This document shows positions 12,611 through 63,823 of a stretch of DNA of 64,000 nucleotides, piece after piece. This DNA comes from Marixanthomonas sp. SCSIO 43207. GTDB taxonomy: Bacteria > Bacteroidota > Bacteroidia > Flavobacteriales > Flavobacteriaceae. The position numbers were made by a program, and so were the translations under genes. The notes under the pieces were generated by a model. That model was not told the origin of the DNA, made no database searches, and saw nothing but the letters and a program-made list of their open reading frames with translations. Numbering within the stretch: the stretch's first letter is position 1; the number at the start of each line of letters is the position of its first letter. Location: assembly GCF_019904255.1 (NCBI RefSeq), contig NZ_CP063203.1, forward strand, positions 1,736,001 through 1,800,000. Direction: 5' to 3'.

Positions 12611-12646
12611 TACTTGAACTATTTAATTAATGATATAAATACAGGT

Positions 12647-13230: not shown

Positions 13231-13238
13231 TAATTTTG
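13231..13238 (+). promoter_or_regulatory. Predicted -7 box TAATTTTG for the TPR-protein operon
   Basis: Perfect TAnnTTTG, 22 bp before the ATG at 13261. No TTG at the standard -33 distance; a TTTCG around 13205 is the nearest candidate. Confidence 0.5.
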
Positions 13239-13260
13239 TTATTAAAAAAACCTCAACTCT

Positions 13261-16200: not shown

Positions 16201-16278
16201 GACGAAGCTAAGGTTGAATTAGCCAGAATTAAAGCTGCTGAAGCTAAGACAAACGCCTCAGTAGAAACTGAAGAATAG
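13261..16278 (+). CDS. Large secreted tetratricopeptide-repeat protein
   Basis: 1005 residues. Signal peptide ending at LSFSQ, then an almost uninterrupted series of TPR-like helix pairs from about residue 30 to 980; recognisable units include NNQFLAAQTLFAKV, GKYAYARKWYDKV, SKRYNEAKKYFNRV, GDYQNAINEFNKI and QYWPAMENYNKAIEVG. The repeats imply a long superhelical scaffold that binds other proteins, probably in the periplasm or at the inner face of the outer membrane. There is no lipobox (no Cys at the cleavage site) and no sorting domain. The outer-membrane beta-barrel gene follows after 48 bp and the thioredoxin-like gene directly after that, so a joint envelope function is likely. The actual role is not known to me. 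Confidence 0.85.
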   Translation: MRNTCLALTVFLVSCTLSFSQQTAVLTNDLVDYNKAIELYNNNQFLAAQTLFAKVKSTTDEETIEGDCAYYIANCAVRLNQQDADQLMETFVEDYPTSIKRNDAYINVANYYFENGKYAYARKWYDKVDESSLSRGEMEKYNFNNGYAYFKSKRYNEAKKYFNRVSTSQKYGSQAKYYLGYIAYEGDDYEQANQQFEEIKDEERYAEDLSYYQADMNFKLGKFQKAIDLGKEQYDSSSPQERSELSKIIGESYFNLGQYADAIPYLKKYKGKRGKWNNTDYYQLGYAYYKQGDYQNAINEFNKIIGGSNSVAQNAYYHLAESYLKLDQKQQALNAFKNASEMEFSAEIKEDAFLNYAKLSYEIGNSYQSAPQVLQSFIETYPNNKNNEAIKNLLIDSYITSKNYEAAMKLLENNKAFENKLAYQKVAFFRGVELYNESNYNEAKQLFNKSLKEPRDATYTARATYWKAESDYQLSNFSEALIGYKQFLQLPQATATPEYENARYNLGYNQFKLKNYSEAISNFKLYVESSSASGARKQDAYLRLGDSYFVTSQYWPAMENYNKAIEVGTADEDYAAFQKAISYGFVDRTDQKIEGLQTFLRTYVKSIYRDDALYELGNTYVSQNRNSEALQTYDNLIKNNPKSIYKPRALMKKALLLDNTGKSNEALTIFKQVARDYPSTPEAVQAVSSAKIIYIDQGKVDQYANWVSTLDYVSVEDNELDDATYQAAEQPYLENKTSQAISRFEAYLNQFPNGKHALNAHFYLGQIYFSETDKQKAIPHYEYVVSRERSEFTEQALARISELYLEQNKYEKALTYLKRLEATADYPQNIIFAQTNSMKASYELKQYNDAVNYAEKVLQNSKIDNSIKSDAQVIIARSAIKTNDEAKAKKAYAEVGKIATGELAAEALYYDAYFKRKDNNFKASNESVQQLAKDYSGYKRYGAKGLLLMAKNFYDLKDAYQATYILESLIQNFSDYQETVDEAKVELARIKAAEAKTNASVETEE

Positions 16279-16326
16279 TACAATCACTACAAAAAAATTA
16301 AAGAACCAAACCTCTCAATATATCTT

Positions 16327-18117: not shown

Positions 18118-18119
18118 AG

Positions 18120-18452
18120 ATGAAAACTCCATCAAATATAGAAACACTTAAAAAAGTAATACAATCAAGACAACCAGTATTGCTGTATTTTTCTGGAGAA
18201 CGTTGTAGTGTTTGTAAAGCTTTAAAGCCTAAAATAGAAACGTTAATTTCCTCTCGATTTAAAGATTTACAAGCTTTTGAAGTAACAATAGAAAATCAAC
18301 CCGATATAGCTGCTCACTTTATGGTCTTTGCAAACCCTACAGTTGTGGTGCTTTTTGATGGCAAAGAATCATTAAGAGAAAGTAAAAACATGAGTATTTC
18401 TCAGTTTGAAAAATCACTAGATAGGTTATATCAACTTTACAAAGAAGCTTGA
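18120..18452 (+). CDS. Thioredoxin-like protein with CSVC active site
   Basis: 110 residues from the ATG at 18120; a TTG nine bases earlier would overlap the barrel gene. Thioredoxin fold: PVLLYFSGERCSVCKALKP carries the CxxC as C29-S-V-C32, and FANPTVVVLF contains the cis-proline before the active site. The motif differs from the WCGPC of ordinary thioredoxins: no Trp precedes the first Cys and the dipeptide is Ser-Val. There is no signal peptide, so it should be cytoplasmic. It starts two bases after the barrel gene and ends before a strong terminator, making it the last gene of the TPR/barrel operon. Confidence 0.82.
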   Translation: MKTPSNIETLKKVIQSRQPVLLYFSGERCSVCKALKPKIETLISSRFKDLQAFEVTIENQPDIAAHFMVFANPTVVVLFDGKESLRESKNMSISQFEKSLDRLYQLYKEA

Positions 18453-18482
18453 TTTTTTATCTATAACCTTATAAATTTTCAT

Positions 18483-18526
18483 AATAAAGAAAGCGGCTGC
18501 ATTTACAGTTGCTTTCTTTATTTTTG
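18483..18526 (+). terminator. Strong intrinsic terminator after the thioredoxin-like gene
   Basis: Perfect 12-bp stem: AATAAAGAAAGC (18483-18494) pairs with GCTTTCTTTATT (18511-18522), with a 16-nt loop that can form three more CTG/CAG pairs. A short T run follows. The same bases contain the -7 box for the next gene. Confidence 0.75.
18519..18526 (+). promoter_or_regulatory. Predicted -7 box TATTTTTG for the amidohydrolase gene
   Basis: Perfect TAnnTTTG, 23 bp before the ATG at 18550. It overlaps the 3' arm and T run of the terminator, so the two elements share sequence. No TTG at the usual -33 distance. Confidence 0.45.
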
Positions 18527-18549
18527 TGTCTTATTATTAAAAACTGATT

Positions 18550-20187
18550 ATGAAAAAATTTTTTACTCTCGCATTTGTATTATTAGTTCTAGCTTGTGCT
18601 CCAGAAAAAATACCTGCAGATTTATTAGTTAAAAATGCAACTATATACACTGTTAATGAAAATTTTGATGTTGAAGATGCATTTGTTGTGAGAGACGGGA
18701 AGATTCTAGAAATAGGATTAAAACCCGAGTTAGAATTAAAATACAAGATTACTGAAACCTATGATGCTAAAGGAAAAACTATTGTTCCCGGTTTAATTGA
18801 TGCACACGCACATCTTTATGGTCTAGGGTTAAACTTACAAGACGTAGATTTAACCGAAACAACCAGTTATGATGAGGTTTTGGCACGAGTTATTGCCTTT
18901 CAGAAAGAGAAAAAGAAAGAGTATATCATCGGAAGAGGTTGGGATCAAAATGATTGGGAAGTAAAGGAGTTTCCTACCAAAAAAGAATTAGACTCTTTAT
19001 TTCCAAATACACCTGTAGCCTTAACTAGAATCGACGGTCACGCGATGATAGTAAATAGTAAAGCACTGCAAATGGCAGGTATTACCCCACAAACTAAAAT
19101 TGAAGGTGGCGTAATAGGAATAGACAACGGAAAACTCACCGGTATTTTGGTAGATAGCCCCATGAGTATAATAGAAGAATCTTTTCCTAAACAAAATAGA
19201 AGTTATAACAAACAAGCCTTACTAGATGCAGAGCGTATTAGTTTGCAATACGGTTTAACAACAGTTAATGATGCCGGTCTTGATAGAGAAATAATTGAAT
19301 TGATAGATAGCTTACAAAAGCAAGACAGCATGGCTTTGCGTGTGTATGCTATGGTGAGTAATAAACCTAAAAATCTTGACTTTTATTTAAGTAACGGAAA
19401 AATAAAAACCAACAGACTTAATGTACGGTCAGTAAAGGTTTATGCAGATGGAGCTTTGGGATCTAGAGGTGCAGCCTTGCGCGATTCATACAGTGATATG
19501 CCAGGTCATTTTGGTGCTATGATTACTCCGGCAGATAGTTTACAAAAGTTAGCAAATAGAATTTATGAAGCCGGATATCAAATGAATACTCATGCAATTG
19601 GTGATTCAGCAAATATTGCTGTGTTACGAGCTTATGAAAGTGCACTAAAAGATAAAACAGATGCACGATGGAAAATTGAACATGCGCAAATTATCAGTAA
19701 ACAAGATTTTAGTAAGTTTTCAAAAAACATCATTCCTTCGGTACAACCAACACACGCTACCAGTGATATGTATTGGGCAGAAGACCGAATAGGATCTAAA
19801 CGAATACAGGGTGCATATGCATACAAAACACTTCTTGAAAATACCGGAATCATTGTTTTAGGAACCGACTTTCCGGTAGAGCAAGTTAACCCTATGTATA
19901 CGTTTTATGCAGCTGTTGCTCGTAAGGACTTAAAACAGTTTCCAGAAGGAGGTTTTCAGAAAAAAGATGCGTTAACTCGCGAAGAAGCTTTAAAAGGAAT
20001 GACCATTTGGGCAGCCTATTCAAACTTTGAAGAGGCTGAAAAGGGGAGTCTTGAAGAAGGTAAGTTGGCAGATTTTACAGTTCTTGATCGTGATATTATG
20101 ACGGTTGCTGAAGACAGCATCCCTAATACAAAAGTGTTGGCGACTTTTATCAATGGTAAAAAAGAATTCAGTCTAGAGGAAGAATAA
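18550..20187 (+). CDS. YtcJ-like amidohydrolase, predicted lipoprotein
   Basis: 545 residues of the amidohydrolase_3 family (PF07969). A lipoprotein signal with lipobox VLACAP puts a Cys at residue 16-17. The beta-sandwich part (LLVKNATIYTVNE) is followed by the metal-binding GLIDAHAHLYG, then IDGHAMIVNSKAL, KVYADGALGSRGA, MNTHAIGDSAN, WKIEHAQI and the catalytic Asp in LGTDFPVEQ. These match the metal-dependent hydrolase barrel of YtcJ/N-substituted-formamide deformylase relatives. It would hydrolyse an amide or related bond in the periplasm, but the substrate is unknown. The gene is monocistronic by position: terminator upstream and convergent gene downstream. Confidence 0.88.
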   Translation: MKKFFTLAFVLLVLACAPEKIPADLLVKNATIYTVNENFDVEDAFVVRDGKILEIGLKPELELKYKITETYDAKGKTIVPGLIDAHAHLYGLGLNLQDVDLTETTSYDEVLARVIAFQKEKKKEYIIGRGWDQNDWEVKEFPTKKELDSLFPNTPVALTRIDGHAMIVNSKALQMAGITPQTKIEGGVIGIDNGKLTGILVDSPMSIIEESFPKQNRSYNKQALLDAERISLQYGLTTVNDAGLDREIIELIDSLQKQDSMALRVYAMVSNKPKNLDFYLSNGKIKTNRLNVRSVKVYADGALGSRGAALRDSYSDMPGHFGAMITPADSLQKLANRIYEAGYQMNTHAIGDSANIAVLRAYESALKDKTDARWKIEHAQIISKQDFSKFSKNIIPSVQPTHATSDMYWAEDRIGSKRIQGAYAYKTLLENTGIIVLGTDFPVEQVNPMYTFYAAVARKDLKQFPEGGFQKKDALTREEALKGMTIWAAYSNFEEAEKGSLEEGKLADFTVLDRDIMTVAEDSIPNTKVLATFINGKKEFSLEEE

Positions 20188-48300: not shown

Positions 48301-49684
48301 CCTTAAAACTGTAAAAGGTGAAGATGCTGAAGGAAATGAGGTTGATATTGTAATTTCACGTACTTCAGAAATTAAATTGATTGATCCAAAAACAGGTATT
48401 ACTTTAAGTAACAACAACATTCCTTACGGTTCTACACTTTATGTAAAAGATGGTGATAAGCTGAAAGAAGGAGATGTAGTTTGTCAGTGGGATCCATATA
48501 ACGGTGTAATTATTTCAGAGTTTGCAGGTAAGATTAAGTATGAGAATATCGAGCAAGGTGTTACCTACCAAGTTGAAATTGATGAGCAAACAGGATTCCA
48601 AGAAAAGGTAATTTCAGAATCTAGAAATAAAAAGAAAATACCAACACTTCAAATCTTAGGCAAAAAAGACGAAGTAATCCGTTCATACAATTTACCAGTA
48701 GGTGCACACTTAATGGTAGATGACGGTGAAAAGATTAAAATTGGTAAAGTACTTGTAAAAATACCTCGTAAATCATCAAAAGCTGGTGATATTACCGGTG
48801 GTCTTCCACGTGTGACCGAGTTATTTGAAGCACGTAATCCTTCAAATCCTGCTGTAGTAAGTGAGATTGATGGTGTTGTTTCTTTCGGAAAAATTAAACG
48901 TGGTAACCGTGAGATTATCGTTGAGTCTAAGCTAGGCGAAATCAAAAAGTACTTGGTAAAGTTATCTAATCAAATTCTTGTACAAGAAAATGATTATGTA
49001 CGTGCCGGTATGCCACTTTCAGATGGATCTATTACTCCTGAAGATATTTTACGTATTGAAGGACCTTCAGCAGTACAGCAGTACTTAGTAAATGAAGTTC
49101 AAGAAGTATACCGTCTACAAGGTGTAAAAATTAACGATAAGCACTTTGAGGTAGTAGTACGTCAAATGATGCGTAAAGTACGTATTGTTGATAGTGGTGA
49201 CACTACATTCTTAGAAAATCAATTAGCTCATAAAGATGATTTTATTGAAGAAAACGATAAAATCTTCGGAATGAAAGTAGTTGAAAACGCTGGAGATAGT
49301 GATACTTTAAAAGAAGGACAGATTGTAACACCACGTGAGTTACGTGATGAAAACTCAATCTTGAAACGTAATGATAAAGCACTAGTTGAAGCTAGAGATG
49401 CAATTAATGCAACTGCAACTCCTATATTGCAAGGTATTACAAGAGCATCGCTACAAACTAAATCTTTTATCTCTGCGGCTTCCTTCCAGGAAACTACAAA
49501 AGTATTAAACGAAGCTGCTGTAAGCGGTAAAGTTGATACTCTTGAAGGATTGAAAGAGAATGTTATTGTAGGTCATAAAATACCAGCAGGTACCGGAATG
49601 CGTGAATACGATTCTATAATCGTAGGAAGCAAAGAGGAGCTTGAAGAAATGACTCGCGAAAAACAAGAAGTGAATTACAACTAA
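45386..49684 (+). CDS. rpoC: DNA-directed RNA polymerase subunit beta'
   Basis: 1432 residues. Zinc-binding N-terminus with [20 protein letters not shown], the clamp, then [16 protein letters not shown] (about residues 474-489) carrying the three Asp that bind the catalytic Mg2+, the trigger-loop region around [12 protein letters not shown], and the second zinc site [14 protein letters not shown]. Complete, with no unusual inserts visible. It ends with a strong bidirectional-looking terminator before the DUF3467 gene. Confidence 0.98.
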
Positions 49685-49707
49685 TACGTTGTATTATATA
49701 CATAAGT

Positions 49708-49743
49708 AAAGAAAAATCCCGTTCAAACGGGATTTTTCTTTTA
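49708..49743 (+). terminator. Intrinsic terminator after rpoC
   Basis: AAAGAAAAATCCCGTT pairs with ACGGGATTTTTCTTT around a CAA loop, at least 14 bp, with a T-rich 3' arm. Ends the ribosomal/RNA polymerase operon. Confidence 0.88.
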
Positions 49744-49816
49744 TATTTAGTTATCAATAATCATTTATGTGGCTTTGTTAAGTAAAGCTACAAACATTAA
49801 TAAGAGATTTAAACCT

Positions 49817-50134
49817 ATGTCAGACGATAAAAAAAAGCAAAAGCAAGGACAAATAAATATAGAACTAGATGAGAGTACAGCGCAAGGTATTTACAGCAAC
49901 TTGGCTATAATCAATCACTCCCAATCTGAATTTATAGTAGATTTTGTTAGTATTATGCCGGGTGTGCCTAAAAGTAAAGTAAAGTCTAGAATAATATTAA
50001 CGCCTCAACATGCAAAAAGACTTTTGAGAGCGTTAAATGATAACATTCAACGATTTGAGAAAGCGCACGGTGAAGTAGAAGAACAAGAACAACCTACTAT
50101 GCCTTTAAATTTTGGCCCTACTGGTGAGGCTTAA
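49817..50134 (+). CDS. DUF3467 family protein
   Basis: 105 residues from the ATG at 49817 (MSDDKKKQ); a frame open further upstream (49769) lies in non-conserved sequence. The core QINIELDESTAQGIYSNLAI, then HSQSEFIVDFVSIMPGVPK and SRIILTPQHAKRLLRAL, defines DUF3467, a small family found next to rpoC in Bacteroidota and Chlorobi. Function unknown. The fold is probably a small beta-sandwich resembling DUF2887-like or chaperone domains, but this is a guess from strand pattern only. Confidence 0.88.
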   Translation: MSDDKKKQKQGQINIELDESTAQGIYSNLAIINHSQSEFIVDFVSIMPGVPKSKVKSRIILTPQHAKRLLRALNDNIQRFEKAHGEVEEQEQPTMPLNFGPTGEA

Positions 50135-50162
50135 TTGAACAGATTATAAGTATTAAAGTACC

Positions 50163-51749
50163 CTACTTAAATTCGCTTACAAAATGCAATTTTATGTTAG
50201 GGTATTTTGTTTGTGTCATTTGTAAAGTAAAGGCAGAATCTGCAAAGAACACCAATTGGTTTCTTTTGTCTTTTGCCAAAAACTTTGCTTTTACACGCTT
50301 AAATTCTTTAAATTCTTCGCTTTTAGGATCTTTTGGTTCAACCCAACATGCTTTATGTACGTTAAGGTTCTCATAGCGACAAGAAGCTCCATATTCGTGC
50401 TCCAATCGATATTGAATTACTTCAAATTGAAGAGCACCTACAGTTCCTATTACTTTTCTTCCGTTTAATTCTAAGGTGAATAGTTGTGCAACCCCTTCAT
50501 CCATCAATTGATCAATCCCTTTTTCTAGTTGCTTGCTTTTCATAGGGTCTGCATTATTGATGTACTTAAAATGTTCTGGAGAAAAGCTGGGAATACCTTT
50601 ATATTGCATTTCTTCACCTTCTGTAAGGGTGTCACCAATTTTAAAATTACCTGTATCGTGAAGGCCTACAATATCACCTGGATAAGAAATGTCTACAATT
50701 TGTTTTTTTTCTGCAAAAAATGCATTGGGGCTAGAAAATTTAAGTTTTTTTCCATTTCTCACGTGTAAATATGGAGTGTTGCGTTCAAAGGTACCAGATA
50801 CAATTTTTACAAATGCAAGACGGTCACGATGCTTAGGGTCCATATTTGCGTGTATTTTAAACACAAAACCTGTAAAATCTTTTTCATCTGGTTTTACTAA
50901 GCGAGTATCACTTTCTTTTGGTCTTGGTTTTGGGGCAATTTCTACAAAACAATCTAATAACTCGCGTACCCCAAAATTATTTAAGGCGGAACCAAAGAAA
51001 ACGGGTTGTAGTTCTCCATTAAGATATTCTTCTCGATTAAATGTAGGGTAAATATCAACAAGTTCTAGTTCTTCTCTAAGTGTTTCAGCAGATTCGCTTC
51101 CTATTAATTCATCGAGTTGTGGATTGCTTAAATCCTCAATTTCAATAGTTTCTTCAATGTTTTTTCGGCTACTGCCACTAAAAAGGTTTACATTTTTTTC
51201 CCAGATATTATAGATTCCTTTAAAATCATATCCCATTCCAATTGGAAAACTCAATGGGGTAACGCGTAGGTTTAATTTTTGCTCAATTTCGTCTAATAAT
51301 TCAAATGCGTCTTTACCTTCACGATCCATTTTATTAATAAAAACAATCATGGGTATGTTACGCATTCTACAAACTTCAACAAGTTTTTCGGTTTGAGCTT
51401 CAACACCTTTTGCTACGTCTATTACAACAATAACACTATCTACTGCTGTAAGTGTTCTAAACGTGTCTTCTGCAAAGTCTTTGTGACCGGGAGTGTCTAG
51501 AATATTAATTTTAATTCCTTCATATTCAAACGCTAATACAGATGTAGCAACTGATATACCACGTTGCCTTTCAATCTCCATAAAGTCACTTGTGGCTCCC
51601 TTTTTAATTTTATTACTTTTTACGGCTCCAGCTTCTTGAATTGCACCTCCAAAGAGTAATAATTTTTCGGTTAAAGTGGTTTTACCTGCATCTGGGTGAG
51701 AGATAATTCCAAAGGTTCTTCTGCGTTCTATTTCCCGTTTAATTGACAT
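50163..51749 (-). CDS. prfC: Peptide chain release factor 3
   Basis: 528 residues. GTPase motifs [18 protein letters not shown] (G1), QRGISVATS (switch I), [12 protein letters not shown] (G3) and [11 protein letters not shown] (G4), then domain 2 with [12 protein letters not shown] and the RF3-specific C-terminus with [20 protein letters not shown]3 recycles RF1/RF2 after termination. Convergent with the DUF3467 gene (28 bp between stops); preceded by its own -7 box. Confidence 0.96.
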
Positions 51750-51772
51750 GGATTGATTTCTAAATTTGATGG

Positions 51773-51780
51773 CAAAGATA
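51773..51780 (-). promoter_or_regulatory. Predicted -7 box TATCTTTG for prfC
   Basis: Complementary strand, perfect TAnnTTTG, 23 bp before the ATG. No TTG at -33. Confidence 0.5.
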
Positions 51781-52232
51781 CGTGTTTTTAAAGTAGTTTT
51801 TTAGGGTGTTTTAAAGAGTTTTAAAAACAAAAATTCCCACAAAATAAAACGCTCTCATCCTAGTGAAAACCGATATTCTACGTAGTTATACGTATATATG
51901 TTTCCTACAAAAAAAAGGGTTAAAAAGTAAAAAATATTGTAGTTCACCGAGAATATTCAACATTTAGGCTAATAGTTGCTTTTTAGTAAGACTTTAACAT
52001 TTTTTCCTACGTATCTTAGCACTCAGAAAGCGATTAAGTAATCTATTGTGATGGTTCATTTATATACCAATAATTTTAGATATTCCTCTACTGAATTTCG
52101 TTTTATCCAAATCAAATTAATAATGTAACCTATAGAGTTGAAAGGATGATGTTCTTTTGCTAGAAGTTATTTTAATGAAGATTTAAGTTATAGTTAATGA
52201 TAAAATTATGAATACTAATAAAATTCAAGCTT
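51781..52232. other. 452-bp intergenic region upstream of the giant surface protein gene
   Basis: No convincing gene. It contains three TACGTA palindromic hexamers at 51879-51884, 51889-51894 and 52008-52013 (the first two as CTACGTAG and TATACGTATA), a near-consensus -7 box TATCTTAG at 52012-52019, and otherwise AT-rich sequence. If that box is used, the giant gene has a leader of about 200 nt. A 25-codon ORF at 52051-52128 has no support. Confidence 0.6.
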
Positions 52233-55200
52233 ATGTATAAAATAATTACTAAATTATTTACTTCTGATAAGAGGTTTTTAATAGGTCTCATTTTAATAGT
52301 TTGCTTGGGTAGTCAAGGATTTGCTCAGGTGAAAACCTCTACAGATGAGGGAGAAGTAGTATTACCTTATACTCAAGAGTATTTGGATCAATACAATGCA
52401 GAATTAGACAAAAAGGCTGCTAAGCATAATACCTTGTTTCGTTCTAAATCTAAAGCACAAGCGTTGCATAACCATTCAGAATCTAGAAATGTAGGTGGTT
52501 GTAACTTGATTACGTGTGGTTCTTTTGAAAAAGGGGATGTAAGCGGAGGAACTTTTCGTACTGCTATTGGTGGAACAAATGGTCAATATCAAGCAGATGC
52601 AAGATATACGTGTTGGGATGATAACGGTACAGTAGATTGGTCTGAAGGACAATATATTTCATATTCAACAACAAATTCAAACTCAGTTTATCCAGGTATA
52701 ATTGAGCCTTCAACTTATGATGGAGGCGGTTTTGCTATATTTTCGTTTAGAAATGAATCTATAGAGCAAACATTATCTGTTATACCAAATACTGTATATA
52801 CGGTATGTTTTGAAATAGCTGTTATACCTCGTTATGCTACAGTAAATAATAATAATAATGGTGGGCAAATTTTGGAGTATAGACCAAATTTACAATTTGG
52901 TGTTAGAAACGGAGCTGTTGTGGTTAGCGATCCACTTACTTATACAGATGATGACCTTATTCAACATCCTACAAGTGATTTTCCATCTAGATTATCTTTC
53001 TCTACTACGGGACCAAACCAAAACCCTGGAGGATGGACTGAAATAAACCCATATTGGGAAAACAGATGTATAACTTTTAGAACGGGACCTTCAGCAAATT
53101 CTGTAGAGGTGTTTTATAAAACCGGAAACCCGGGAGAATCTGTAGTTTTAGTAGACGGTTTAAGACTGTCTGTTGAAGGTTATGCAAACTCTCCAGAACT
53201 TTCTGTTACTGCAAAAACGTATTGCGAACCTACTCAGGTTCAGCTGAATAGTTTTGTTACGTCTACAACACCTACTGGTGCTGAATTGAGATGGAGTGCT
53301 AATGCAGATTTAAGTAACCCTCTTCCTAGTAATCCTACAGTAACAACTCCTGGTGAGTGGTATGCTTATTATTATAATCCAGATTTAGGATGTACTTCGC
53401 CTTCGCGAAAACTTACATTAACTAATTCTGATATAGCTATCACAAATACTAAGAAAGATGTTACTTGTTTTGAAGGTAATGATGGAGAAATCGATATAAC
53501 TGTAACTGGAGGATCTTCGTCTTATACATATGCTTGGACAACTAATGATGGTAGTGGCTTAAACCCTACAGCAGAAGATCAAACGGGATTAACTGCAGGA
53601 ACTTATAAAGTAACTGTAGATGACGGTATATGTACCATTGATAAAACTATTGTGATAACTCAACCCGATCAAATTGATGTTGAGGCCAATGAATATAATC
53701 CATTATGTGATAATGGAAATGAAATTGTTTTAACAGGAGTACCAACAAACTCAAACGGTGAATGGACCGGAACCAATGTTGTAGATAATGGAGATGGTAC
53801 GGCAAGCTTTGATCCTTCTGGATTGAGTGGAACTATTACAGTGACTTATACCTACACAGACGGAAACAATTGTACAAATAGTGATACAGCAGACATTGTA
53901 ATCAATGAATCTCCAGAGGCACCGATAAGTAACGGTGATATTGCAGAATGTAAAGAAGAAATTACACAAACACTTGATGCAAATGATGCAATTTCAGCAG
54001 CACCTGGTACTAGTATTGTTTGGTATACAGATGCTACCGGTAACTCAGTAGTTAACAATCCTATTCTTAATTCGGTAGGAACGGTTACCTATTATGCTGA
54101 AGCGATAAGTAATACAGGATCTTGTTCTAGTTCAGATAGAACAGCAGTTACTTTAACTATTTATAACTGTTCTATTTCAATTGAGAAAACAGCAAGTCCT
54201 AATAATACTCAAAATTGTAACACTATCGCTCCAGGTGAAATGATAACCTACACTTTTAAGGTTACAAACCTAGGAGACGTTGCAATAAATGACATTGAAG
54301 TAAACGATCCATTAATAGATACTGTAAACCCAGTACCAGGTCCAAACGGTGGTGACACAAATAATAACGGAATTTTAGACGTAGGAGAAGAGTGGACTTA
54401 TGAAGCAAGTTATGAGGTAACTCAACAAAATATTATTGATGGTCAAGTTGAAAATACTGCAACTGTCGATGGTACAGTTACTGGTTCATCAGCTTCTTAC
54501 AATGTAACAGATACAGATTCAGTAACTGTAACACTTTGTCAAGATGCTGAAATATCTATTGTAAAATCAAGTACTAGTGAATCTCAAAATTGTCTTGACC
54601 TTAATGTTGATGATACCATTGATTATAAATTTGAAGTAACAAATGAAGGCGATGTTGATATCACGAATGTAGAAGTTATCGATCCATTATTCCAAGCTCC
54701 AAATCCTGTAGTTTCAATTACATTGGCTTCTGGAGATATAAATAATGATAATATATTAAATGTTGGTGAAGTATGGATGTTTGAAGCAACTTATACAGTA
54801 GATCAAGATGATATTGATGCTGGTCAAGTAGAAAATACAGCAAGTGTAAATGGAGAAACCGGATTAGGTTCAGTAAATGATACTAGTAACACTATTACAA
54901 TTCCTATTTGTCAAGACGCATCGATAGCATTGATTAAGGAATCAGATATACAGATTGATCCGAACACGGGTTGTTACGAAGGAGAAGTAGGGGAGACGAT
55001 CACCTATAGCTTCAAAGTAAAGAACACAGGAGATGTAACATTAACCAATGTGATGGTAACCGATTTAGTAGGCGGTGTAACGATGAGCGGTGTACCTATT
55101 GCTAGTTTAGCACCGGGAGCAGAAGACACCACTACCTTCACAGCGAGTTATGAATTAACCCAAGCTGATATAGATGCAGGATCATTTACCAACCGAGCGT

Positions 55201-58200
55201 TAGCCACAGGAACGCCACCAATCGGTGATGATGTAACCGATGAGTCAGACGACACGAGTTATACAGAAAACGGCGATACGGTAGTACCGCTATGTCAGAA
55301 TGCATCGATAGCATTGATTAAGGAATCAGATATACAGATTGATCCGAACACGGGTTGTTACGGAGGAGAAGTAGGGGAGACGATCACCTATAGCTTCAAA
55401 GTAAAGAACACAGGAGATGTAACATTAACCAATGTGATGGTAACCGATTTAGTAGGCGGTGTAACGATGAGCGGTGTACCTATTGCTAGTTTAGCACCGG
55501 GAGCAGAAGACACCACTACCTTCACAGCGAGTTATGAATTAACCCAAGCTGATATAGATGCAGGATCATTTACCAACCGAGCGTTAGCCACAGGAACGCC
55601 ACCAATCGGTGATGATGTAACCGATGAGTCAGACGACACGAGTTATACAGAAAACGGCGATACGGTAGTACCGCTATGTCAGAATGCATCGATAGCATTG
55701 ATTAAGGAATCAGATATACAGATTGATCCGAACACGGGTTGTTACGGAGGAGAAGTAGGGGAGACGATCACCTATAGCTTCAAAGTAAAGAACACAGGAG
55801 ATGTAACATTAACCAATGTGATGGTAACCGATTTAGTAGGCGGTGTAACGATGAGCGGTGTACCTATTGCTAGTTTAGCACCGGGAGCAGAAGACACCAC
55901 TACCTTCACAGCGAGTTATGAATTAACCCAAGCTGATATAGATGCAGGATCATTTACCAACCGAGCGTTAGCCATAGGAACGCCACCAATCGGTGATGAT
56001 GTAACCGATGAGTCAGACGACACGAGTTATACAGAAAACGGCGATACGGTAGTACCGCTATGTCAGAATGCATCGATAGCATTGATTAAGGAATCAGATA
56101 TACAGATTGATCCGAACACGGGTTGTTACGGAGGAGAAGTAGGGGAGACGATCACCTATAGCTTCAAAGTAAAGAACACAGGAGATGTAACATTAACCAA
56201 TGTGATGGTAACCGATTTAGTAGGCGGTGTAACGATGAGCGGTGTACCTATTGCTAGTTTAGCACCGGGAGCAGAAGACACCACTACCTTCACAGCGAGT
56301 TATGAATTAACCCAAGCTGATATAGATGCAGGATCATTTACCAACCGAGCGTTAGCCACAGGAACGCCACCAATCGGTGATGATGTAACCGATGAGTCAG
56401 ACGACACGAGTTATACAGAAAACGGCGATACGGTAGTACCGCTATGTCAGAATGCATCGATAGCATTGATTAAGGAATCAGATATACAGATTGATCCGAA
56501 CACGGGTTGTTACGGAGGAGAAGTAGGGGAAACGATCACCTATAGCTTCAAAGTAAAGAACACAGGAGATGTAACATTAACCAATGTGATGGTAACCGAT
56601 TTAGTAGGCGGTGTAACGATGAGCGGTGTACCTATTGCTAGTTTAGCACCGGGAGCAGAAGACACCACTACCTTCACAGCGAGTTATGAATTAACCCAAG
56701 CTGATATAGATGCAGGATCATTTACCAACCGAGCGTTAGCCACAGGAACGCCACCAATCGGTGATGATGTAACCGATGAGTCAGACGACACGAGTTATAC
56801 AGAAAACGGCGATACGGTAGTACCGCTATGTCAAGACGCAATTATTGCGATTGTAAAAGAGAGCAGTTATGATGACGGAGGAGATTGTTCACAACCAGGT
56901 GAAGAGATTAACTACACGTTTACGGTAACCAACGAAGGCAACGTAAGTTTATCAAACATAGTAGTAACCGATCCATTATTAGCGAGTATTTCTGGACCAA
57001 CCGGTGATACCGATGGAGATGGTGAGTTAGATGTAACAGAGACTTGGGAGTATACAGGAGTGTATGCTATCACTCAAGAAGATATTGACAACGGTCAAGT
57101 AGATAACCAAGCTATGGTAGAAGGAACAGCACCAGATGACACAGTAGTAGGAGACGATTCAGGAAGTACAATAAGTACTGATGAAATCACAACCACAATG
57201 TTATGTCAGAGTCCAGCAATTGCAATTGTAAAAGAGAGCAGTTATGATGATGGAGGAGATTGTTCACAACCAGGTGAAGAGATCAACTACACGTTTACAG
57301 TAACCAACGAAGGCAACGTAAGTTTATCAAACATAGAAGTAACAGATCCATTATTAGCGAGTATTTCTGGACCAACCGGTGATACCGATGGAGATGGTGA
57401 GTTAGATGTAACAGAGACTTGGGAGTATACAGGAGTGTATGCTATCACTCAAGAAGATATTGACAACGGTCAAGTAGATAACCAAGCTATGGTAGAAGGA
57501 ACAGCACCAGATGACACAGTAGTAGGAGACGATTCAGGAAGTACAATAAGTACTGATGAAATCACAACCACAATGTTATGTCAGAGTCCAGCAATTGCAA
57601 TTGTAAAAGAGAGCAGTTATGATGATGGAGGAGATTGTTCACAACCAGGTGAAGAGATCAACTACACGTTTACAGTAACCAACGAAGGCAACGTAAGTTT
57701 ATCAAACATAGAAGTAACAGATCCATTATTAGCGAGTATTTCTGGACCAACCGGTGATACCGATGGAGATGGTGAGTTAGATGTAACAGAGACTTGGGAG
57801 TATACAGGAGTGTATGCTATCACTCAAGAAGATATTGACAACGGTCAAGTAGATAACCAAGCTATGGTAGAAGGAACAGCACCAGATGACACAGTAGTAG
57901 GAGACGATTCAGGAAGTACAATAAGTACTGATGAAATCACAACCACAATGTTATGTCAGAGTCCAGCAATTGCAATTGTAAAAGAGAGCAGTTATGATGA
58001 TGGAGGAGATTGTTCACAACCAGGTGAAGAGATCAACTACACGTTTACAGTAACCAACGAAGGCAACGTAAGTTTATCAAACATAGAAGTAACCGATCCA
58101 TTATTAGCGAGTATTTCTGGACCAACCGGTGATACCGATGGAGATGGTGAGTTAGATGTAACAGAGACTTGGGAGTATACAGGAGTGTATGCTATCACTC

Positions 58201-61200
58201 AAGAAGATATTGACAACGGTCAAGTAGATAACCAAGCTATGGTAGAAGGAACAGCACCAGATGACACAGTAGTAGGAGACGATTCAGGAAGTACAATAAG
58301 TACTGATGAAATCACAACCACAATGTTATGTCAGAGTCCAGCAATTGCAATTGTAAAAGAGAGCAGTTATGATGATGGAGGAGATTGTTCACAACCAGGT
58401 GAAGAGATTAACTACACGTTTACGGTAACCAACGAAGGCAACGTAAGTTTATCAAACATAGAAGTAACCGATCCATTATTAGCGAGTATTTCTGGACCAA
58501 CCGGTGATACCGATGGAGATGGTGAGTTAGATGTAACAGAGACTTGGGAGTATACAGGAGTGTATGCTATCACTCAAGATGATATTGACAACGGTCAAGT
58601 AGATAACCAAGCTATGGTAGAAGGAACAGCACCAGATGACACAGTAGTAGGAGACGATTCAGGAAGTACAATAAGTACTGATGAAATCACAACCACAATG
58701 TTATGTCAGAGTCCAGCAATTGCAATTGTAAAAGAGAGCAGTTATGATGATGGAGGAGATTGTTCACAACCAGGTGAAGAGATCAACTACACGTTTACAG
58801 TAACCAACGAAGGCAACGTAAGTTTATCAAACATAGAAGTAACAGATCCATTATTAGCGAGTATTTCTGGACCAACCGGTGATACCGATGGAGATGGTGA
58901 GTTAGATGTAACAGAGACTTGGGAGTATACAGGAGTGTATGCTATCACTCAAGATGATATTGACAACGGTCAAGTAGATAACCAAGCTATGGTAGAAGGA
59001 ACAGCACCAGATGACACAGTAGTAGGAGACGATTCAGGAAGTACAATAAGTACTGATGAAATCACAACCACAATGTTATGTCAGAGTCCAGCAATTGCAA
59101 TTGTAAAAGAGAGCAGTTATGATGATGGAGGAGATTGTTCACAACCAGGTGAAGAGATCAACTACACGTTTACAGTAACCAACGAAGGCAACGTAAGTTT
59201 ATCAAACATAGAAGTAACAGATCCATTATTAGCGAGTATTTCTGGACCAACCGGTGATACCGATGGAGATGGTGAGTTAGATGTAACAGAGACTTGGGAG
59301 TATACAGGAGTGTATGCTATCACTCAAGAAGATATTGACAACGGTCAAGTAGATAACCAAGCTATGGTAGAAGGAACAGCACCAGATGACACAGTAGTAG
59401 GAGACGATTCAGGAAGTACAATAAGTACTGATGAAATCACAACCACAATGTTATGTCAGAGTCCAGCAATTGCAATTGTAAAAGAGAGTTATGATGATGG
59501 AGGAGATTGTTCACAACCAGGTGAAGAGATCAACTACACGTTTACAGTAACCAACGAAGGCAACGTAAGTTTATCAAACATAGAAGTAACAGATCCATTA
59601 TTAGCGAGTATTTCTGGACCAACCGGTGATACCGATGGAGATGGTGAGTTAGATGTAACAGAGACTTGGGAGTATACAGGAGTGTATGCTATCACTCAAG
59701 ATGATATTGACAACGGTCAAGTAGATAACCAAGCTATGGTAGAAGGAACAGCACCAGATGACACAGTAGTAGGAGACGATTCAGGAAGTACAATAAGTAC
59801 TGATGAAATCACAACCACAATGTTATGTCAGAGTCCAGCAATTGCAATTGTAAAAGAGAGCAGTTATGATGATGGAGGAGATTGTTCACAACCAGGTGAA
59901 GAGATCAACTACACGTTTACAGTAACCAACGAAGGCAACGTAAGTTTATCAAACATAGAAGTAACAGATCCATTATTAGCGAGTATTTCTGGACCAACCG
60001 GTGATACCGATGGAGATGGTGAGTTAGATGTAACAGAGACTTGGGAGTATACAGGAGTGTATGCTATCACTCAAGATGATATTGACAACGGTCAAGTAGT
60101 AAATCAAGCTTTTGTTGAAGGTACTGCTCCAGATAGTACTGTTGTTACTGACGATTCAGGAAGTACAATAAGTACTGATGAAATCACAACCACAACGTTA
60201 TGTCAGAGTCCAGCAATTGCAATTGTAAAAGAGAGCAGTTATGATGATGGAGGAGATTGTTCACAACCAGGTGAAGAGATCAACTACACGTTTACAGTAA
60301 CCAACGAAGGCAACGTAAGTTTATCAAACATAGAAGTAACAGATCCATTATTAGCGAGTATTTCTGGACCAACCGGTGATACCGATGGAGATGGTGAGTT
60401 AGATGTAACAGAGACTTGGGAGTATACAGGAGTGTATGCCATTACTCAAGATGATATTGACAACGGTCAAGTAGATAACCAAGCGATGGTAGAAGGAACA
60501 GCACCAGATGACACAGTAGTAGGAGACGATTCAGGAAGTACAATAAGTACTGATGAAATCACAACCACAACGTTATGTCAGAGTCCAGCAATTGCAATTG
60601 TAAAAGAGAGCAGTTATGATGACGGAGGAGATTGTTCACAACCAGGTGAAGAGATTAACTACACGTTTACAGTAACCAACGAAGGCAACGTAAGTTTATC
60701 AAACATAGAAGTAACCGATCCATTATTAGCGAGTATTTCTGGACCAACCGGTGATACCGATGGAGATGGTGAGTTAGATGTAACAGAGACTTGGGAATAT
60801 ACAGGAGTGTATGCCATTACTCAAGATGATATCGATAAAGGTCAAGTAGTAAATCAAGCTTTTGTTGAAGGTACTGCTCCAGATAGTACTGTTGTTACTG
60901 ACGAATCAGGAAGTACAGTTACTACAGATGATGCTACTACTACAACGTTATGTCAGAGTCCTGCAATTGCGATTGTTAAAGAAGGAATCTTAAATGACGA
61001 AGACGGAGACGGTTGTAGTAATGTAGACGAAACAATAAGCTACACATTTACAGTAACTAATCAAGGAAATGTATCCTTAGACTTTGTTTCAGTTTCTGAT
61101 GCTTTATTAGGAGGTGAGATTGCAGGTCCAGATAGCGGTGATACTGACGGAGATGGAAAACTAGATGTTTCCGAAGTTTGGATATATTCAGCAAACTATG

Positions 61201-62825
61201 CCATTACTCAAGATGATATTGACAATGGAGAAGTAATTAACCAAGCTATTGCTAAAGGAGAAGCTCCATCAGGTCAAATTGTTACAGATGAGTCTGGAGC
61301 TACAATAAGCGATGATGATCCAACAGTGACTACGCTTTGTCAAAATCCAGCAATCGCTATCGTTAAAGAAGGAATTTATAATGATGAAGACGGAGATGGT
61401 TGTAGTAATGTAGATGAAACAATTAGTTACACATTTACAGTAACTAATCAAGGCAACGTAAGTTTATCAAACATAGAAGTAACAGATCCATTGATAGCAA
61501 CAATTGATGGTCCTTCAGGAGATGATAATGGTAATGGTCAATTAGATGTAACTGAAACTTGGGTGTATACAGGAACTTACGCCATTACTCAAGCAGATAT
61601 AAACAATGGAGAGGTAGTAAATCAAGCAACTGCTGAAGGTACTGCGCCAGACGGAACAATTGTAAGTGATGATTCAGGAACGTCTATAAGCAATGATGAC
61701 CCAACAATTACTATTCTTTGTCAAGAAGGATCAATCGCTCTTGTGAAGATAGGAACCTTCTCTGATGAAAATGGAGATGGGTGTACTCAAGTTGGAGAAA
61801 CTATTGTATATGACTTTATTGTAACCAATACAGGAACAGTTGATTTAACAAATGTAATTGTAACAGATCCACTTGTAACAGTAACTGGAGATCCAATAGA
61901 TCTTATTGCTGGTGAAACAGATGACACAACTTTTACGGCGGTGTACACTATCACGCAAGCAGATATAGATGCAGGTCAAGTTACCAATCAAGCAACCGCT
62001 GAAGGTACTACACCTGAAGGAAATACAGTAAGTGACCAATCTGGTGAAACAATTGATGATGATAATCCAACAATAACAGAACTTTGTCAGACTTCATCAA
62101 TGTCATTAGAAAAGTCAGGTGCATTCAACGATGAAAATGGAGATGGAATACCTCAAGTAGGAGAAACAATAAGTTATGTTTTCAGTGTAACAAACACAGG
62201 AAGTACAACATTATACAACATAACGATTGAAGATCCATTACCAGGTATTGAAGTTCAAGGAGGACCTATTGAAGAATTAGCTCCAGGTATTACAGATGAT
62301 ACTACATTTACAGCAACCTATGCAATTACTCAGGCAGATATAGATGCCGGTCAAGTAATTAATCAAGCAATTGTAAATGGAGAAGATGAAGACGGAGTAT
62401 TAGTAACTGATGAGTCTGATGATCCAAACAATGATGAAGATGTTGATAACAACGGTGATGGAGAACCAGATGATCCTACAGTAGTTGTAATTGGAAACGT
62501 AGATCCAGAAGGAGACTTTGAAATATTCAATGGTATAACGCCTAACGGAGATAACTTAAATGATTACTTTGTGATTGCTGGAATACAAGATTACCCAGAC
62601 AACAATGTTAAAATTTACAACAGATGGGGTGTTCTAGTATGGGAAACAAACGGATATGGAGGTTCAAACGGTCAAGAGAATGTATTTACCGGAGAGTCTA
62701 ATGGTAGAGCAACAATACGTGCAAACGAAGAATTGCCAACCGGTACTTACTTCTATATTCTTAGCTTCCAGTCAGACAATCCAGGGAAAGCAAGTTATTC
62801 AGGATACTTATATATAAATAGATAG
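52233..62825 (+). CDS. Giant T9SS-secreted repeat protein (SprB-repeat, 22 Ig-like DUF11/DUF7507-type domains, type B sorting domain)
   Basis: 3530 residues. A signal peptide ends near SQGFAQ (about residue 32). Residues ~90-315 look like a beta-sandwich ligand-binding domain; ~320-395 and ~485-645 are Ig-like; ~405-480 is a SprB repeat (DVTCFEGNDGEIDITVTGG ... GLTAGTYKVTV). From ~647 to ~3420 there are 22 Ig-like domains of the DUF11/DUF7507 type (core pattern YTFTVTNEGNVSLSNIEVTDP): two divergent, five nearly identical 128-residue copies (896-1535), eleven nearly identical ~125-residue copies (~1536-2910), and four divergent. The last ~107 residues (GITPNGDNLNDYFVI ... GTYFYILSF ... SGYLYINR) are a type B (gliding-motility-associated) C-terminal sorting domain. 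SprF and OmpA-family genes follow. The protein is best seen as a cell-surface adhesin or fibre exported through the type IX secretion system. Confidence 0.93.
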   Translation: MYKIITKLFTSDKRFLIGLILIVCLGSQGFAQVKTSTDEGEVVLPYTQEYLDQYNAELDKKAAKHNTLFRSKSKAQALHNHSESRNVGGCNLITCGSFEKGDVSGGTFRTAIGGTNGQYQADARYTCWDDNGTVDWSEGQYISYSTTNSNSVYPGIIEPSTYDGGGFAIFSFRNESIEQTLSVIPNTVYTVCFEIAVIPRYATVNNNNNGGQILEYRPNLQFGVRNGAVVVSDPLTYTDDDLIQHPTSDFPSRLSFSTTGPNQNPGGWTEINPYWENRCITFRTGPSANSVEVFYKTGNPGESVVLVDGLRLSVEGYANSPELSVTAKTYCEPTQVQLNSFVTSTTPTGAELRWSANADLSNPLPSNPTVTTPGEWYAYYYNPDLGCTSPSRKLTLTNSDIAITNTKKDVTCFEGNDGEIDITVTGGSSSYTYAWTTNDGSGLNPTAEDQTGLTAGTYKVTVDDGICTIDKTIVITQPDQIDVEANEYNPLCDNGNEIVLTGVPTNSNGEWTGTNVVDNGDGTASFDPSGLSGTITVTYTYTDGNNCTNSDTADIVINESPEAPISNGDIAECKEEITQTLDANDAISAAPGTSIVWYTDATGNSVVNNPILNSVGTVTYYAEAISNTGSCSSSDRTAVTLTIYNCSISIEKTASPNNTQNCNTIAPGEMITYTFKVTNLGDVAINDIEVNDPLIDTVNPVPGPNGGDTNNNGILDVGEEWTYEASYEVTQQNIIDGQVENTATVDGTVTGSSASYNVTDTDSVTVTLCQDAEISIVKSSTSESQNCLDLNVDDTIDYKFEVTNEGDVDITNVEVIDPLFQAPNPVVSITLASGDINNDNILNVGEVWMFEATYTVDQDDIDAGQVENTASVNGETGLGSVNDTSNTITIPICQDASIALIKESDIQIDPNTGCYEGEVGETITYSFKVKNTGDVTLTNVMVTDLVGGVTMSGVPIASLAPGAEDTTTFTASYELTQADIDAGSFTNRALATGTPPIGDDVTDESDDTSYTENGDTVVPLCQNASIALIKESDIQIDPNTGCYGGEVGETITYSFKVKNTGDVTLTNVMVTDLVGGVTMSGVPIASLAPGAEDTTTFTASYELTQADIDAGSFTNRALATGTPPIGDDVTDESDDTSYTENGDTVVPLCQNASIALIKESDIQIDPNTGCYGGEVGETITYSFKVKNTGDVTLTNVMVTDLVGGVTMSGVPIASLAPGAEDTTTFTASYELTQADIDAGSFTNRALAIGTPPIGDDVTDESDDTSYTENGDTVVPLCQNASIALIKESDIQIDPNTGCYGGEVGETITYSFKVKNTGDVTLTNVMVTDLVGGVTMSGVPIASLAPGAEDTTTFTASYELTQADIDAGSFTNRALATGTPPIGDDVTDESDDTSYTENGDTVVPLCQNASIALIKESDIQIDPNTGCYGGEVGETITYSFKVKNTGDVTLTNVMVTDLVGGVTMSGVPIASLAPGAEDTTTFTASYELTQADIDAGSFTNRALATGTPPIGDDVTDESDDTSYTENGDTVVPLCQDAIIAIVKESSYDDGGDCSQPGEEINYTFTVTNEGNVSLSNIVVTDPLLASISGPTGDTDGDGELDVTETWEYTGVYAITQEDIDNGQVDNQAMVEGTAPDDTVVGDDSGSTISTDEITTTMLCQSPAIAIVKESSYDDGGDCSQPGEEINYTFTVTNEGNVSLSNIEVTDPLLASISGPTGDTDGDGELDVTETWEYTGVYAITQEDIDNGQVDNQAMVEGTAPDDTVVGDDSGSTISTDEITTTMLCQSPAIAIVKESSYDDGGDCSQPGEEINYTFTVTNEGNVSLSNIEVTDPLLASISGPTGDTDGDGELDVTETWEYTGVYAITQEDIDNGQVDNQAMVEGTAPDDTVVGDDSGSTISTDEITTTMLCQSPAIAIVKESSYDDGGDCSQPGEEINYTFTVTNEGNVSLSNIEVTDPLLASISGPTGDTDGDGELDVTETWEYTGVYAITQEDIDNGQVDNQAMVEGTAPDDTVVGDDSGSTISTDEITTTMLCQSPAIAIVKESSYDDGGDCSQPGEEINYTFTVTNEGNVSLSNIEVTDPLLASISGPTGDTDGDGELDVTETWEYTGVYAITQDDIDNGQVDNQAMVEGTAPDDTVVGDDSGSTISTDEITTTMLCQSPAIAIVKESSYDDGGDCSQPGEEINYTFTVTNEGNVSLSNIEVTDPLLASISGPTGDTDGDGELDVTETWEYTGVYAITQDDIDNGQVDNQAMVEGTAPDDTVVGDDSGSTISTDEITTTMLCQSPAIAIVKESSYDDGGDCSQPGEEINYTFTVTNEGNVSLSNIEVTDPLLASISGPTGDTDGDGELDVTETWEYTGVYAITQEDIDNGQVDNQAMVEGTAPDDTVVGDDSGSTISTDEITTTMLCQSPAIAIVKESYDDGGDCSQPGEEINYTFTVTNEGNVSLSNIEVTDPLLASISGPTGDTDGDGELDVTETWEYTGVYAITQDDIDNGQVDNQAMVEGTAPDDTVVGDDSGSTISTDEITTTMLCQSPAIAIVKESSYDDGGDCSQPGEEINYTFTVTNEGNVSLSNIEVTDPLLASISGPTGDTDGDGELDVTETWEYTGVYAITQDDIDNGQVVNQAFVEGTAPDSTVVTDDSGSTISTDEITTTTLCQSPAIAIVKESSYDDGGDCSQPGEEINYTFTVTNEGNVSLSNIEVTDPLLASISGPTGDTDGDGELDVTETWEYTGVYAITQDDIDNGQVDNQAMVEGTAPDDTVVGDDSGSTISTDEITTTTLCQSPAIAIVKESSYDDGGDCSQPGEEINYTFTVTNEGNVSLSNIEVTDPLLASISGPTGDTDGDGELDVTETWEYTGVYAITQDDIDKGQVVNQAFVEGTAPDSTVVTDESGSTVTTDDATTTTLCQSPAIAIVKEGILNDEDGDGCSNVDETISYTFTVTNQGNVSLDFVSVSDALLGGEIAGPDSGDTDGDGKLDVSEVWIYSANYAITQDDIDNGEVINQAIAKGEAPSGQIVTDESGATISDDDPTVTTLCQNPAIAIVKEGIYNDEDGDGCSNVDETISYTFTVTNQGNVSLSNIEVTDPLIATIDGPSGDDNGNGQLDVTETWVYTGTYAITQADINNGEVVNQATAEGTAPDGTIVSDDSGTSISNDDPTITILCQEGSIALVKIGTFSDENGDGCTQVGETIVYDFIVTNTGTVDLTNVIVTDPLVTVTGDPIDLIAGETDDTTFTAVYTITQADIDAGQVTNQATAEGTTPEGNTVSDQSGETIDDDNPTITELCQTSSMSLEKSGAFNDENGDGIPQVGETISYVFSVTNTGSTTLYNITIEDPLPGIEVQGGPIEELAPGITDDTTFTATYAITQADIDAGQVINQAIVNGEDEDGVLVTDESDDPNNDEDVDNNGDGEPDDPTVVVIGNVDPEGDFEIFNGITPNGDNLNDYFVIAGIQDYPDNNVKIYNRWGVLVWETNGYGGSNGQENVFTGESNGRATIRANEELPTGTYFYILSFQSDNPGKASYSGYLYINR
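54918..56837 (+). repeat. Array A: five tandem 384-bp coding repeats
   Basis: Units start at 54918, 55302, 55686, 56070 and 56454, each exactly 384 bp (128 codons). I see only isolated single-base differences: copy 1 has GAA where the others have GGA (Glu for Gly), copy 3 has ATA for ACA (Ile for Thr), and copy 5 has a silent G-to-A near 56530. Each unit encodes one Ig-like domain with SLAPGAEDTTTFTASYELTQ and no calcium loop. Confidence 0.97.
56838..60962 (+). repeat. Array B: eleven tandem 375-bp coding repeats
   Basis: Units begin at about 56841, 57216, 57591, 57966, 58341, 58716, 59091, 59466, 59838, 60213 and 60588. The period is 375 bp except unit 8 (372 bp), which lacks one AGC codon (KESS becomes KES). 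Units 2-8 differ at only a few bases. Units 9 and 11 share a divergent 3' half encoding NQAFVEGTAPDSTVV. Each encodes an Ig-like domain with the EF-hand-like loop DTDGDGELDVTE. Confidence 0.97.
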
Positions 62826-62878: not shown

Positions 62879-63823
62879 ATGAAACACAGTTATTTAGCCA
62901 TTTTAGTTTTGATTTTACTTGGGAGCTTTTCAAGCAATGCCCAGCAAGATCCGCAGTACACACAATATATGTACAATACACAGATTGTAAACCCTGCGTA
63001 TGCGGGATCTAGAGACGCCTTAAGTTTCGGCTTATTGCTACGTTCACAGTGGGTGGGTCTAGAAGGAGCACCAAAGACAGGAACCTTTACTGTAAATTCT
63101 CCTATTGGAGCATTAGACAATATGGGACTTGGTCTTTCAATTGTTCGTGATGAAATAGGCCCGGCAGTAGAATCAAATGTTAACATAGATTATTCATATA
63201 CCATCAATACCTCAGATGCTGCAGAATTATCCTTTGGACTTAAAGCAGGTTTAGATTTATTAGATGTGAATTTTAATAGACTAAACATATTTGATGAAAA
63301 TGATGTGTTTGAACAAAACATTGACAATAAGATACAACCACAAATAGGAGCAGGTGTATATTTTAATACAGATAAGTTTTATGCCGGTTTATCGGTTCCT
63401 AACTTCTTAACATCAAAACACTTTGATGAGTCAACTCTAGAAAATTATGACTTTGATGATGATGTTGCTCCAGCAGAAAGACTACACTATTTTTTAATTG
63501 CTGGTTATGTATTTGATATTAATGAAAATTTAAAGTTTAAGCCAGCAACATTGGTGAAAGCTGTAAGCGGGTCACCTCTACAATGGGATGCTTCAGCAAA
63601 CTTTTTAATCTATGATAAATTAACATTAGGAGCTTCTTATAGATGGAGTGCAGCATTGAGTGCTATGGCTGGTTTTCAAGTAAGCGATCAAATATTTATT
63701 GGTTTTGGGTATGATTATCAAACCACAGATATTGAAGATTTCAGTGATGGTTCTTATGAAGTATTTCTACGATTTGATCTATTTAACAGACCGGAAAGGG
63801 TACTTACACCAAGATTCTTCTAA
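62879..63823 (+). CDS. Type IX secretion system PorP/SprF-family outer-membrane protein
   Basis: 314 residues. Signal peptide ending at FSSNAQ, then QDPQYTQYMYNTQIVNPAYAGSRDALS, the diagnostic N-terminus of PorP/SprF proteins (given as two parts: QDPQYTQYMYN and NPAYAGSRDALS). A series of amphipathic beta strands follows, ending with EVFLRFDLFNRP before the C-terminal FF. In Flavobacterium johnsoniae SprF is needed to export and attach the giant adhesin SprB. Its position 53 bp after a type B substrate suggests that it is the dedicated partner of the 3530-residue protein. The next gene follows after 17 bp. Confidence 0.93.
   Translation: MKHSYLAILVLILLGSFSSNAQQDPQYTQYMYNTQIVNPAYAGSRDALSFGLLLRSQWVGLEGAPKTGTFTVNSPIGALDNMGLGLSIVRDEIGPAVESNVNIDYSYTINTSDAAELSFGLKAGLDLLDVNFNRLNIFDENDVFEQNIDNKIQPQIGAGVYFNTDKFYAGLSVPNFLTSKHFDESTLENYDFDDDVAPAERLHYFLIAGYVFDINENLKFKPATLVKAVSGSPLQWDASANFLIYDKLTLGASYRWSAALSAMAGFQVSDQIFIGFGYDYQTTDIEDFSDGSYEVFLRFDLFNRPERVLTPRFF

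Follow-up and report, generated by a model that had tools for sequence, protein, structure and literature searches.

Near-identical tandem domain arrays within the giant gene of a predicted type IX-secreted adhesin in Marixanthomonas sp. SCSIO 43207

In Periscope Proteins, recombination has been proposed as the cause of changes in length (PMC8201768, PMC9704523), and the criterion by which they are recognized is the presence of tandem repeats of more than 50 residues with at least 80% identity (PMC8201768). The Ig-like domain family DUF7507, also named CLIPPER_2, is listed with Lys, Asp and Asn as the residue types of its isopeptide bond (PMC12617251), DUF11 has been treated as a stalk domain (PMC9210967), and CHU_C was found in 134 fibrillar-adhesin-like proteins, all of them from Bacteroidetes (PMC8286594), each of these statements being taken from excerpts of the papers. 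Here we consider a stretch of 64,000 nucleotides (the window) of Marixanthomonas sp. SCSIO 43207 (contig NZ_CP063203.1, positions 1,736,001 to 1,800,000, forward strand), whose genome is a single contig of 2.96 Mb, and in it a giant open reading frame (ORF) which contains two tandem arrays of DUF7507 domains. The ORF likely encodes a type IX-secreted fibrillar adhesin, in which the stalk arrays have been amplified and homogenised by recombination while the outer domains diverged normally, and whose length could be changed by whole domains.

The domains are numbered D1 to D22 along the stalk, the units of array A being D3-D7, those of array B (B1-B11) being D8-D18, and the flanking domains being D1, D2 and D19-D22. 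In window coordinates, the stalk is arranged as follows:

52233..62825, + strand: giant ORF, 3,530 amino acids, with an N-terminal region, a stalk of 22 DUF7507 domains and a predicted type IX C-terminal signal of type B
54174..54914, + strand: flanking domains D1 and D2, diverged
54915..56834, + strand: array A, 5 x 384 bp (D3-D7), with 3 variable sites
56835..60956, + strand: array B, 11 units of 375 bp, B8 having 372 bp (D8-D18)
60100..60149, + strand: candidate conversion patch in B9, which carries the B11 base at each of 18 variable sites
60850..60899, + strand: stretch of B11 corresponding to the B9 patch; the donor would have been B11-like
60957..62489, + strand: flanking domains D19-D22, diverged; D19, D21 and D22 group by position across species, and no clade of D20 is recovered

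The original prediction had placed two tandem arrays in one giant surface-protein gene, and Tandem Repeats Finder (TRF), run with periods up to 500, bears this out: it reports 5.0 copies of 384 bp at 54918-56833 (99% match) and 11.0 copies of 375 bp at 56844-60982 (97% match), the two remaining rows of the window having periods of 15 and 29. Domain boundaries set the limits of the arrays at 54915-56834 and 56835-60956, both inside the single intact ORF, and the periods of 384 and 375 bp preserve its frame, as had been foreseen. Pfam assigns to the ORF 22 DUF7507 stretches, one SprB repeat, one Ig_7 domain and a C-terminal CHU_C; the summed score for DUF7507 (PF24346) over the 22 stretches is 1664.8 bits, the curated cut-off being 27. 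A search of the genome finds these 22 matches over the cut-off in the giant ORF and, elsewhere, one match below it.

The evidence for homogenisation comes first from the silent sites, compared as Nei-Gojobori proportions of synonymous (pS) and non-synonymous (pN) difference. Variation among the five units of array A is confined to unit sites 62, 78 and 290, and the mean pS and pN are 0.013 and 0.004 (10 pairs). In array B they are 0.095 and 0.020 (55 pairs): B2, B3 and B7 are identical, and the units B2-B8 and B10 differ from one another at 0-7 positions and from the array consensus at 0-4, the one-codon deletion of B8 being counted as 3 positions. Larger distances from that consensus are found in B1 (14 of 375, 7 of them within the first 9 bases), B9 (19 of 375) and B11 (39 of 375). 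A homogenised core whose edges lag behind, the pattern of array B, is the expected outcome of unequal crossing-over. The six flanking domains, in contrast, reach a mean pS of 0.624 and pN of 0.372 (15 pairs), with silent sites near saturation, which upholds the earlier statement that they are well diverged members of the same family, and between the two arrays the mean pS is 0.670 and the mean pN 0.443.

A second line of evidence lies inside B9. Of its 19 differences, 18 are packed into 50 bp (window 60100-60149, unit positions 269-318) and have the B11 state without exception, whereas on both sides of the patch B9 is back at the consensus, unlike B11 (the nearest differing sites being 258 and 324). 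Judged from its pattern of sites, an internal patch of this kind marks gene conversion or a double exchange, and not a simple duplication. Moreover, B1 and B5 have sites 75, 90 and 135 in common, which are absent from B2 and B3.

Third, a maximum-likelihood tree was built from the DUF7507 domains of the present genome (G000), of two related genomes (G001 and G002) and of loci L016-L018, with stretches containing runs of N or of at most 250 bases excluded (L010 and L012 yielded no DUF7507 domain). Domains at positions 1 (87.4/99; supports are SH-aLRT/UFBoot), 2 (98.8/99), 19 (97.4/99), 21 (99.4/100) and 22 (99.8/100) group across the three genomes. Array B of the present genome forms its own clade (100/100), and so do the three B-type units of G001 (90.3/90). 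Most flanking domains thus group by position and the arrays by genome, which is the pattern of concerted evolution. The A unit of G002 carries the same 8 differences from all five A units over 368 bases, and the flank differs at 29 of 2682; since the numbers are small and the unit stands at a contig end, no faster change of the A unit is claimed. The common ancestor of the A units would postdate the split of the two haplotypes, with the caveat that the G002 unit is that same contig end. Together, the silent-site contrast, the patch and the domain tree agree with the recent amplification or homogenisation that had been proposed.

On these grounds we propose that the 22 Ig-like domains would form a stiff stalk below an N-terminal tip, and that the CHU_C signal together with the adjoining PorP/SprF protein would attach the adhesin to the cell. 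Homologous recombination, through unequal crossing-over and gene conversion mediated by a putative recombination enzyme, would time and again amplify, trim and homogenise two inner blocks of the stalk, so that the array blocks would evolve in concert within a lineage and the outer domains diverge normally. Stalk length would then change in steps of one domain with the frame kept. Since the diverging and the homogenising members of one domain family lie next to each other here, the rate of concerted evolution inside a bacterial gene could be cleanly tested at this locus.

The N-terminal part of the protein is encoded at 12 related loci, namely in UBA3356 (Flavobacteriaceae), nine Aequorivita records, the Flavobacteriaceae metagenome-assembled genome BB35 and Winogradskyella eximia. 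At 11 of the 12 (a count of contig ends over all loci, in which L009 and G002 are probably one record), the contig ends in the gene, 1,902-3,758 bp past the match start; for L019 the distance is counted from that start (query residue 46) and not from the gene start, and the frame of L016 and of L017 is broken close to runs of N ahead of the contig end. Winogradskyella (L020) alone has the ORF complete, its repeats being looser (about 80% match). That 10 of the 11 broken contigs extend a further 10 kb upstream, and L013 a further 2.2 kb, shows the break to be gene-specific. The contigs of L012 and L013 end within 240-bp units, and L017 has a 219-bp pair. G001, in 6 contigs, breaks inside an A-type unit, two contig ends overlapping exactly over 104 bp; along with the 11 interrupted loci, this supports the view that such genes break assemblies, the array having been described as long enough to be collapsed by short-read assembly. 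Furthermore, a single unit of the 240-bp type in the present genome corresponds in G001 to a 240-bp array with 3.8 units: different species amplify different segments of the adhesin gene. These comparisons concern one genome per species, the arrays of G001 and G002 being broken. Genes of this kind would be cut short in draft genomes, and their size and variation under-counted.

The comparison with G002, in steps of 500 bases, brings to light a change of identity along the window: 70-86% over 20-36.5 kb, 84-95% over 36.5-49.0 kb, where conserved translation and RNA-polymerase genes lie, and 98-100% from 49.0 kb to the end of the G002 contig at 55285, in the first A unit (contig C5, locus L072, window 48740-55285). 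The switch falls in rpoC at 48739/48740, with third-position identity of 72% before and 99.4% after it, and the tract of high identity (99.2%) spans part of rpoC, prfC and the adhesin tip and runs into the first A unit; between 48750 and 54914 there are 52 differences in 6,165 aligned bases. The available sequence does not reach the far end of the tract, and contig C12 of G002, with the stalk end, PorP and downstream genes, is 76-79% identical. Tentatively, the locus could be a recombination hot spot where the tip half of the adhesin passes between related species, with the near-identical arrays as landing sites, and a foreign tip is thereby joined to the resident stalk end. Instead of such an interspecies exchange of the tip half and prfC, a chimeric metagenome contig may explain the switch.

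At the level of the single domain, K8, D46 and N91 are invariant in all 22 DUF7507 domains. We equate this triad with the published one through residue type and spacing rather than structure, and each domain is probably locked by a Lys-Asp-Asn isopeptide bond; stalk domains of the isopeptide type are common in the giant type IX-secreted proteins of Bacteroidota. A pair of cysteines, one after the first strand and one at the domain end, occurs in 21 of the 22 domains, probably forming a bridge within each domain, with which the lack of both in D22 agrees. EF-hand-like loops, scanned for with a pattern that we take to be that of the EF-hand, are found mid-domain in D1, D2, D8-D18, D19 and D20 and near the domain start in D19-D22, array A having none. 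The ORF contains 19 of them (11 being copies of one unit), where 500 shuffles give 0.03 on average, and the Pfam EF-hand match is weak (E 0.19); the loops may bind calcium. An AlphaFold2 model of two B units (pLDDT 87.7, pTM 0.76) consists of units that are each mostly beta strands. A search of the Protein Data Bank (PDB) with one A unit gave 0 matches at E up to 0.1, and a profile of the 22 domains retrieved 4 sequences with E of 1 or less, none of them convincing (best a lectin, E 0.0029).

The two ends of the protein and its neighbourhood contribute the following features:

52488..53186, + strand: conserved N-terminal domain, putative tip
53442..53549, + strand: SprB repeat (residues 404-439; Pfam)
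53913..54161, + strand: Ig_7 domain (residues 561-643; Pfam)
62520..62816, + strand: CHU_C type IX secretion signal, type B (residues 3430-3528; Pfam)
62879..63823, + strand: PorP/SprF family protein, probable partner

Across the 12 related loci the N-terminal domain is 61-100% identical, and it is the probable tip. At the other end, CHU_C (PF13585) scores 90.9 bits against a cut-off of 27, and the genome encodes the SprA translocon (2886.4 bits). Elsewhere in the genome CHU_C has one other match over the cut-off and three below; a second gene, at 2704601-2705227 of contig C1 of G000, combines a strong CHU_C end (108.8 bits) with a weak DUF7507 match. Right after PorP/SprF, just beyond the window end, stand two paralogous OmpA/PD40 proteins (L075:11842-15875), which may be PorE-like and part of the attachment complex. 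The G002 contig, too, shows relatives, and the G001 contig one. Positions 1-20000 of the window had no match in a plasmid collection.

As to how common such genes are, 57 of the 119 Flavobacteriaceae genomes sampled have DUF7507 above its cut-off. In 18 genomes picked from the best scorers, so that no random-sample rate is implied, 65 of 205 adjacent DUF7507 pairs reach a DNA identity of 95% or more, the line being applied to rounded values and pairs more than 60 residues apart being excluded; one or more such pairs are present in 11 of the 18 genomes and absent from 7. Long stretches of near-identical units are found in G072 (about 20 units of 357 bp), G024, G067, G083 and G119, with G067, G072 and G119 being single-contig genomes. 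Near-identical DUF7507 arrays are thus, by this count, a recurrent habit of the family and nothing unusual. In G072 (C1:1-40000, L093 and L094), a frame of at least 8,565 amino acids holds the roughly 20 DUF7507 units of 357 bp along with about 10 copies of a 303-bp repeat.

Several results weigh against the interpretation of a homogenised adhesin stalk. The original claim of sixteen domains with almost no divergence stands for 13 of them and fails for B1, B9 and B11, so that 3 of the 16 array units are clearly diverged. In the tree, neither a clade of position 20 nor one uniting the B arrays of G001 and G002 is recovered, array A alone reaches 83.9/78 and is firm only with the unit of G002 (99.4/100), and at positions 1 and 2 G002 is about identical to the present genome, which leaves G001 as the sole independent species of the three. 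TRF finds an array of 219-240 bp in only 3 of the 11 broken loci (L012, L013, L017) and none in the sequence part present of the remaining eight, for which repeats are the presumed cause of the break. Copy-number differences between cells or strains, as originally predicted, would be an expectation at this coverage of one genome per species. For the tip, no family exceeds its cut-off (best DUF642, E 0.028) and the structure model is poor (pLDDT 50.8). The TIGR04131 score of 34.8 falls just short of its cut-off of 35. Foldseek against the PDB returned, among the 50 matches listed, generic Ig-like structures (integrin alpha, antibody Fc), whose TM did not exceed 0.48, and the DUF11 structure named in PMC12617251 was absent from these 50.

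The explanation that survives best beside adaptive length change has a serious claim, if somewhat short of an even one: the homogenised arrays could be a neutral by-product of repeat recombination, their changes in length being of no use to the cell. Repeats of such length recombine by themselves, and the expansion of different gene segments in different species fits this idea. It accounts less readily for the conservation of the tip and of the sorting end, and for the recurrence in the family of identical neighbouring domains, which are said, in the portion of PMC8201768 used here, to be disfavoured in multidomain proteins owing to misfolding.

A single recent burst of amplification, in which the units would be alike merely from youth and no exchange would continue, seems unlikely. 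The identity of B2, B3 and B7 and the three variable sites of array A are what such a burst would leave, yet the B9/B11 patch requires a later non-reciprocal exchange, the sites common to B1 and B5 skip B2 and B3, and array-type domains that occupy the same place in G001 and G002 are nevertheless grouped by genome, which requires repeated turnover. Still less probable is an assembly artefact, whereby the assembler would have multiplied or misordered copies. Identical neighbours such as B2-B3 (750 bp) are indeed beyond ordering by short reads, and related assemblies break at this very gene; but the genome is one 2.96 Mb contig, the units lie in one open frame, private differences or combinations mark B1, B4, B5, B8, B9, B10 and B11, and comparable arrays exist in other single-contig genomes, the exact counts of 5 and 11 being those of the assembly. 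Finally, selection on protein or codon choice in the absence of recombination is hardly credible: in both arrays pN falls short of pS, from which it follows that protein change is selected against, but neither protein constraint nor codon bias can explain the array identity, and as its sole cause both are ruled out, because flanking domains of the same gene and family are saturated at silent sites (pS 0.62).

Homogenisation of an adhesin stalk by recombination thus remains the reading that we favour, and it can be set beside what is known. SprB-type giant proteins presumably share with the ORF a CHU_C C-terminus, a PorP/SprF neighbour and one SprB repeat. The same C-terminus and neighbour make it similar to CHU_C-anchored fibrillar-adhesin-like proteins (excerpts of PMC8286594), and it differs from both groups in that its stalk consists mainly of near-identical DUF7507 arrays. 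With the DUF7507/CLIPPER_2 stalks, as presented in the portions of PMC12617251 used, it has in common the Pfam family, the tandem arrangement in long surface proteins and the Lys-Asp-Asn triad; a B unit has spacings of 38 from K to D and 45 from D to N, against 40 and 40 in the listed example, to which the present domains add the cysteine pair and the EF-hand-like loops.

At the level of titles and opening abstracts, and for the library and terms searched, no description of such a gene in Flavobacteriaceae-type bacteria was found, and neither was a change of repeat number in adhesins in the parts seen of the literature on F. psychrophilum and F. columnare. Likewise, PMC8201768 and PMC9704523 gave no hit for Bacteroid or Flavobacter, nor for T9SS (the former) or type IX (the latter). 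Unlike Periscope Proteins as described there, the giant ORF has a secretion signal of type IX type and a PorP/SprF neighbour, and unlike those proteins, whose length varies, it is known from one genome of its species. In the features described in these excerpts, it is nonetheless like them: a single-chain surface protein with tandem domains, predicted to be folded, of very high DNA identity and a terminal putative binding domain, its units of 128 and 125 residues, at 99% and 97% DNA match, lying well within the repeat criterion given above. This suggests that stalks of variable length, studied chiefly in other bacteria, occur also in type IX-secreted giant proteins of Bacteroidota, and by analogy the predicted adhesin may work like a Periscope Protein.

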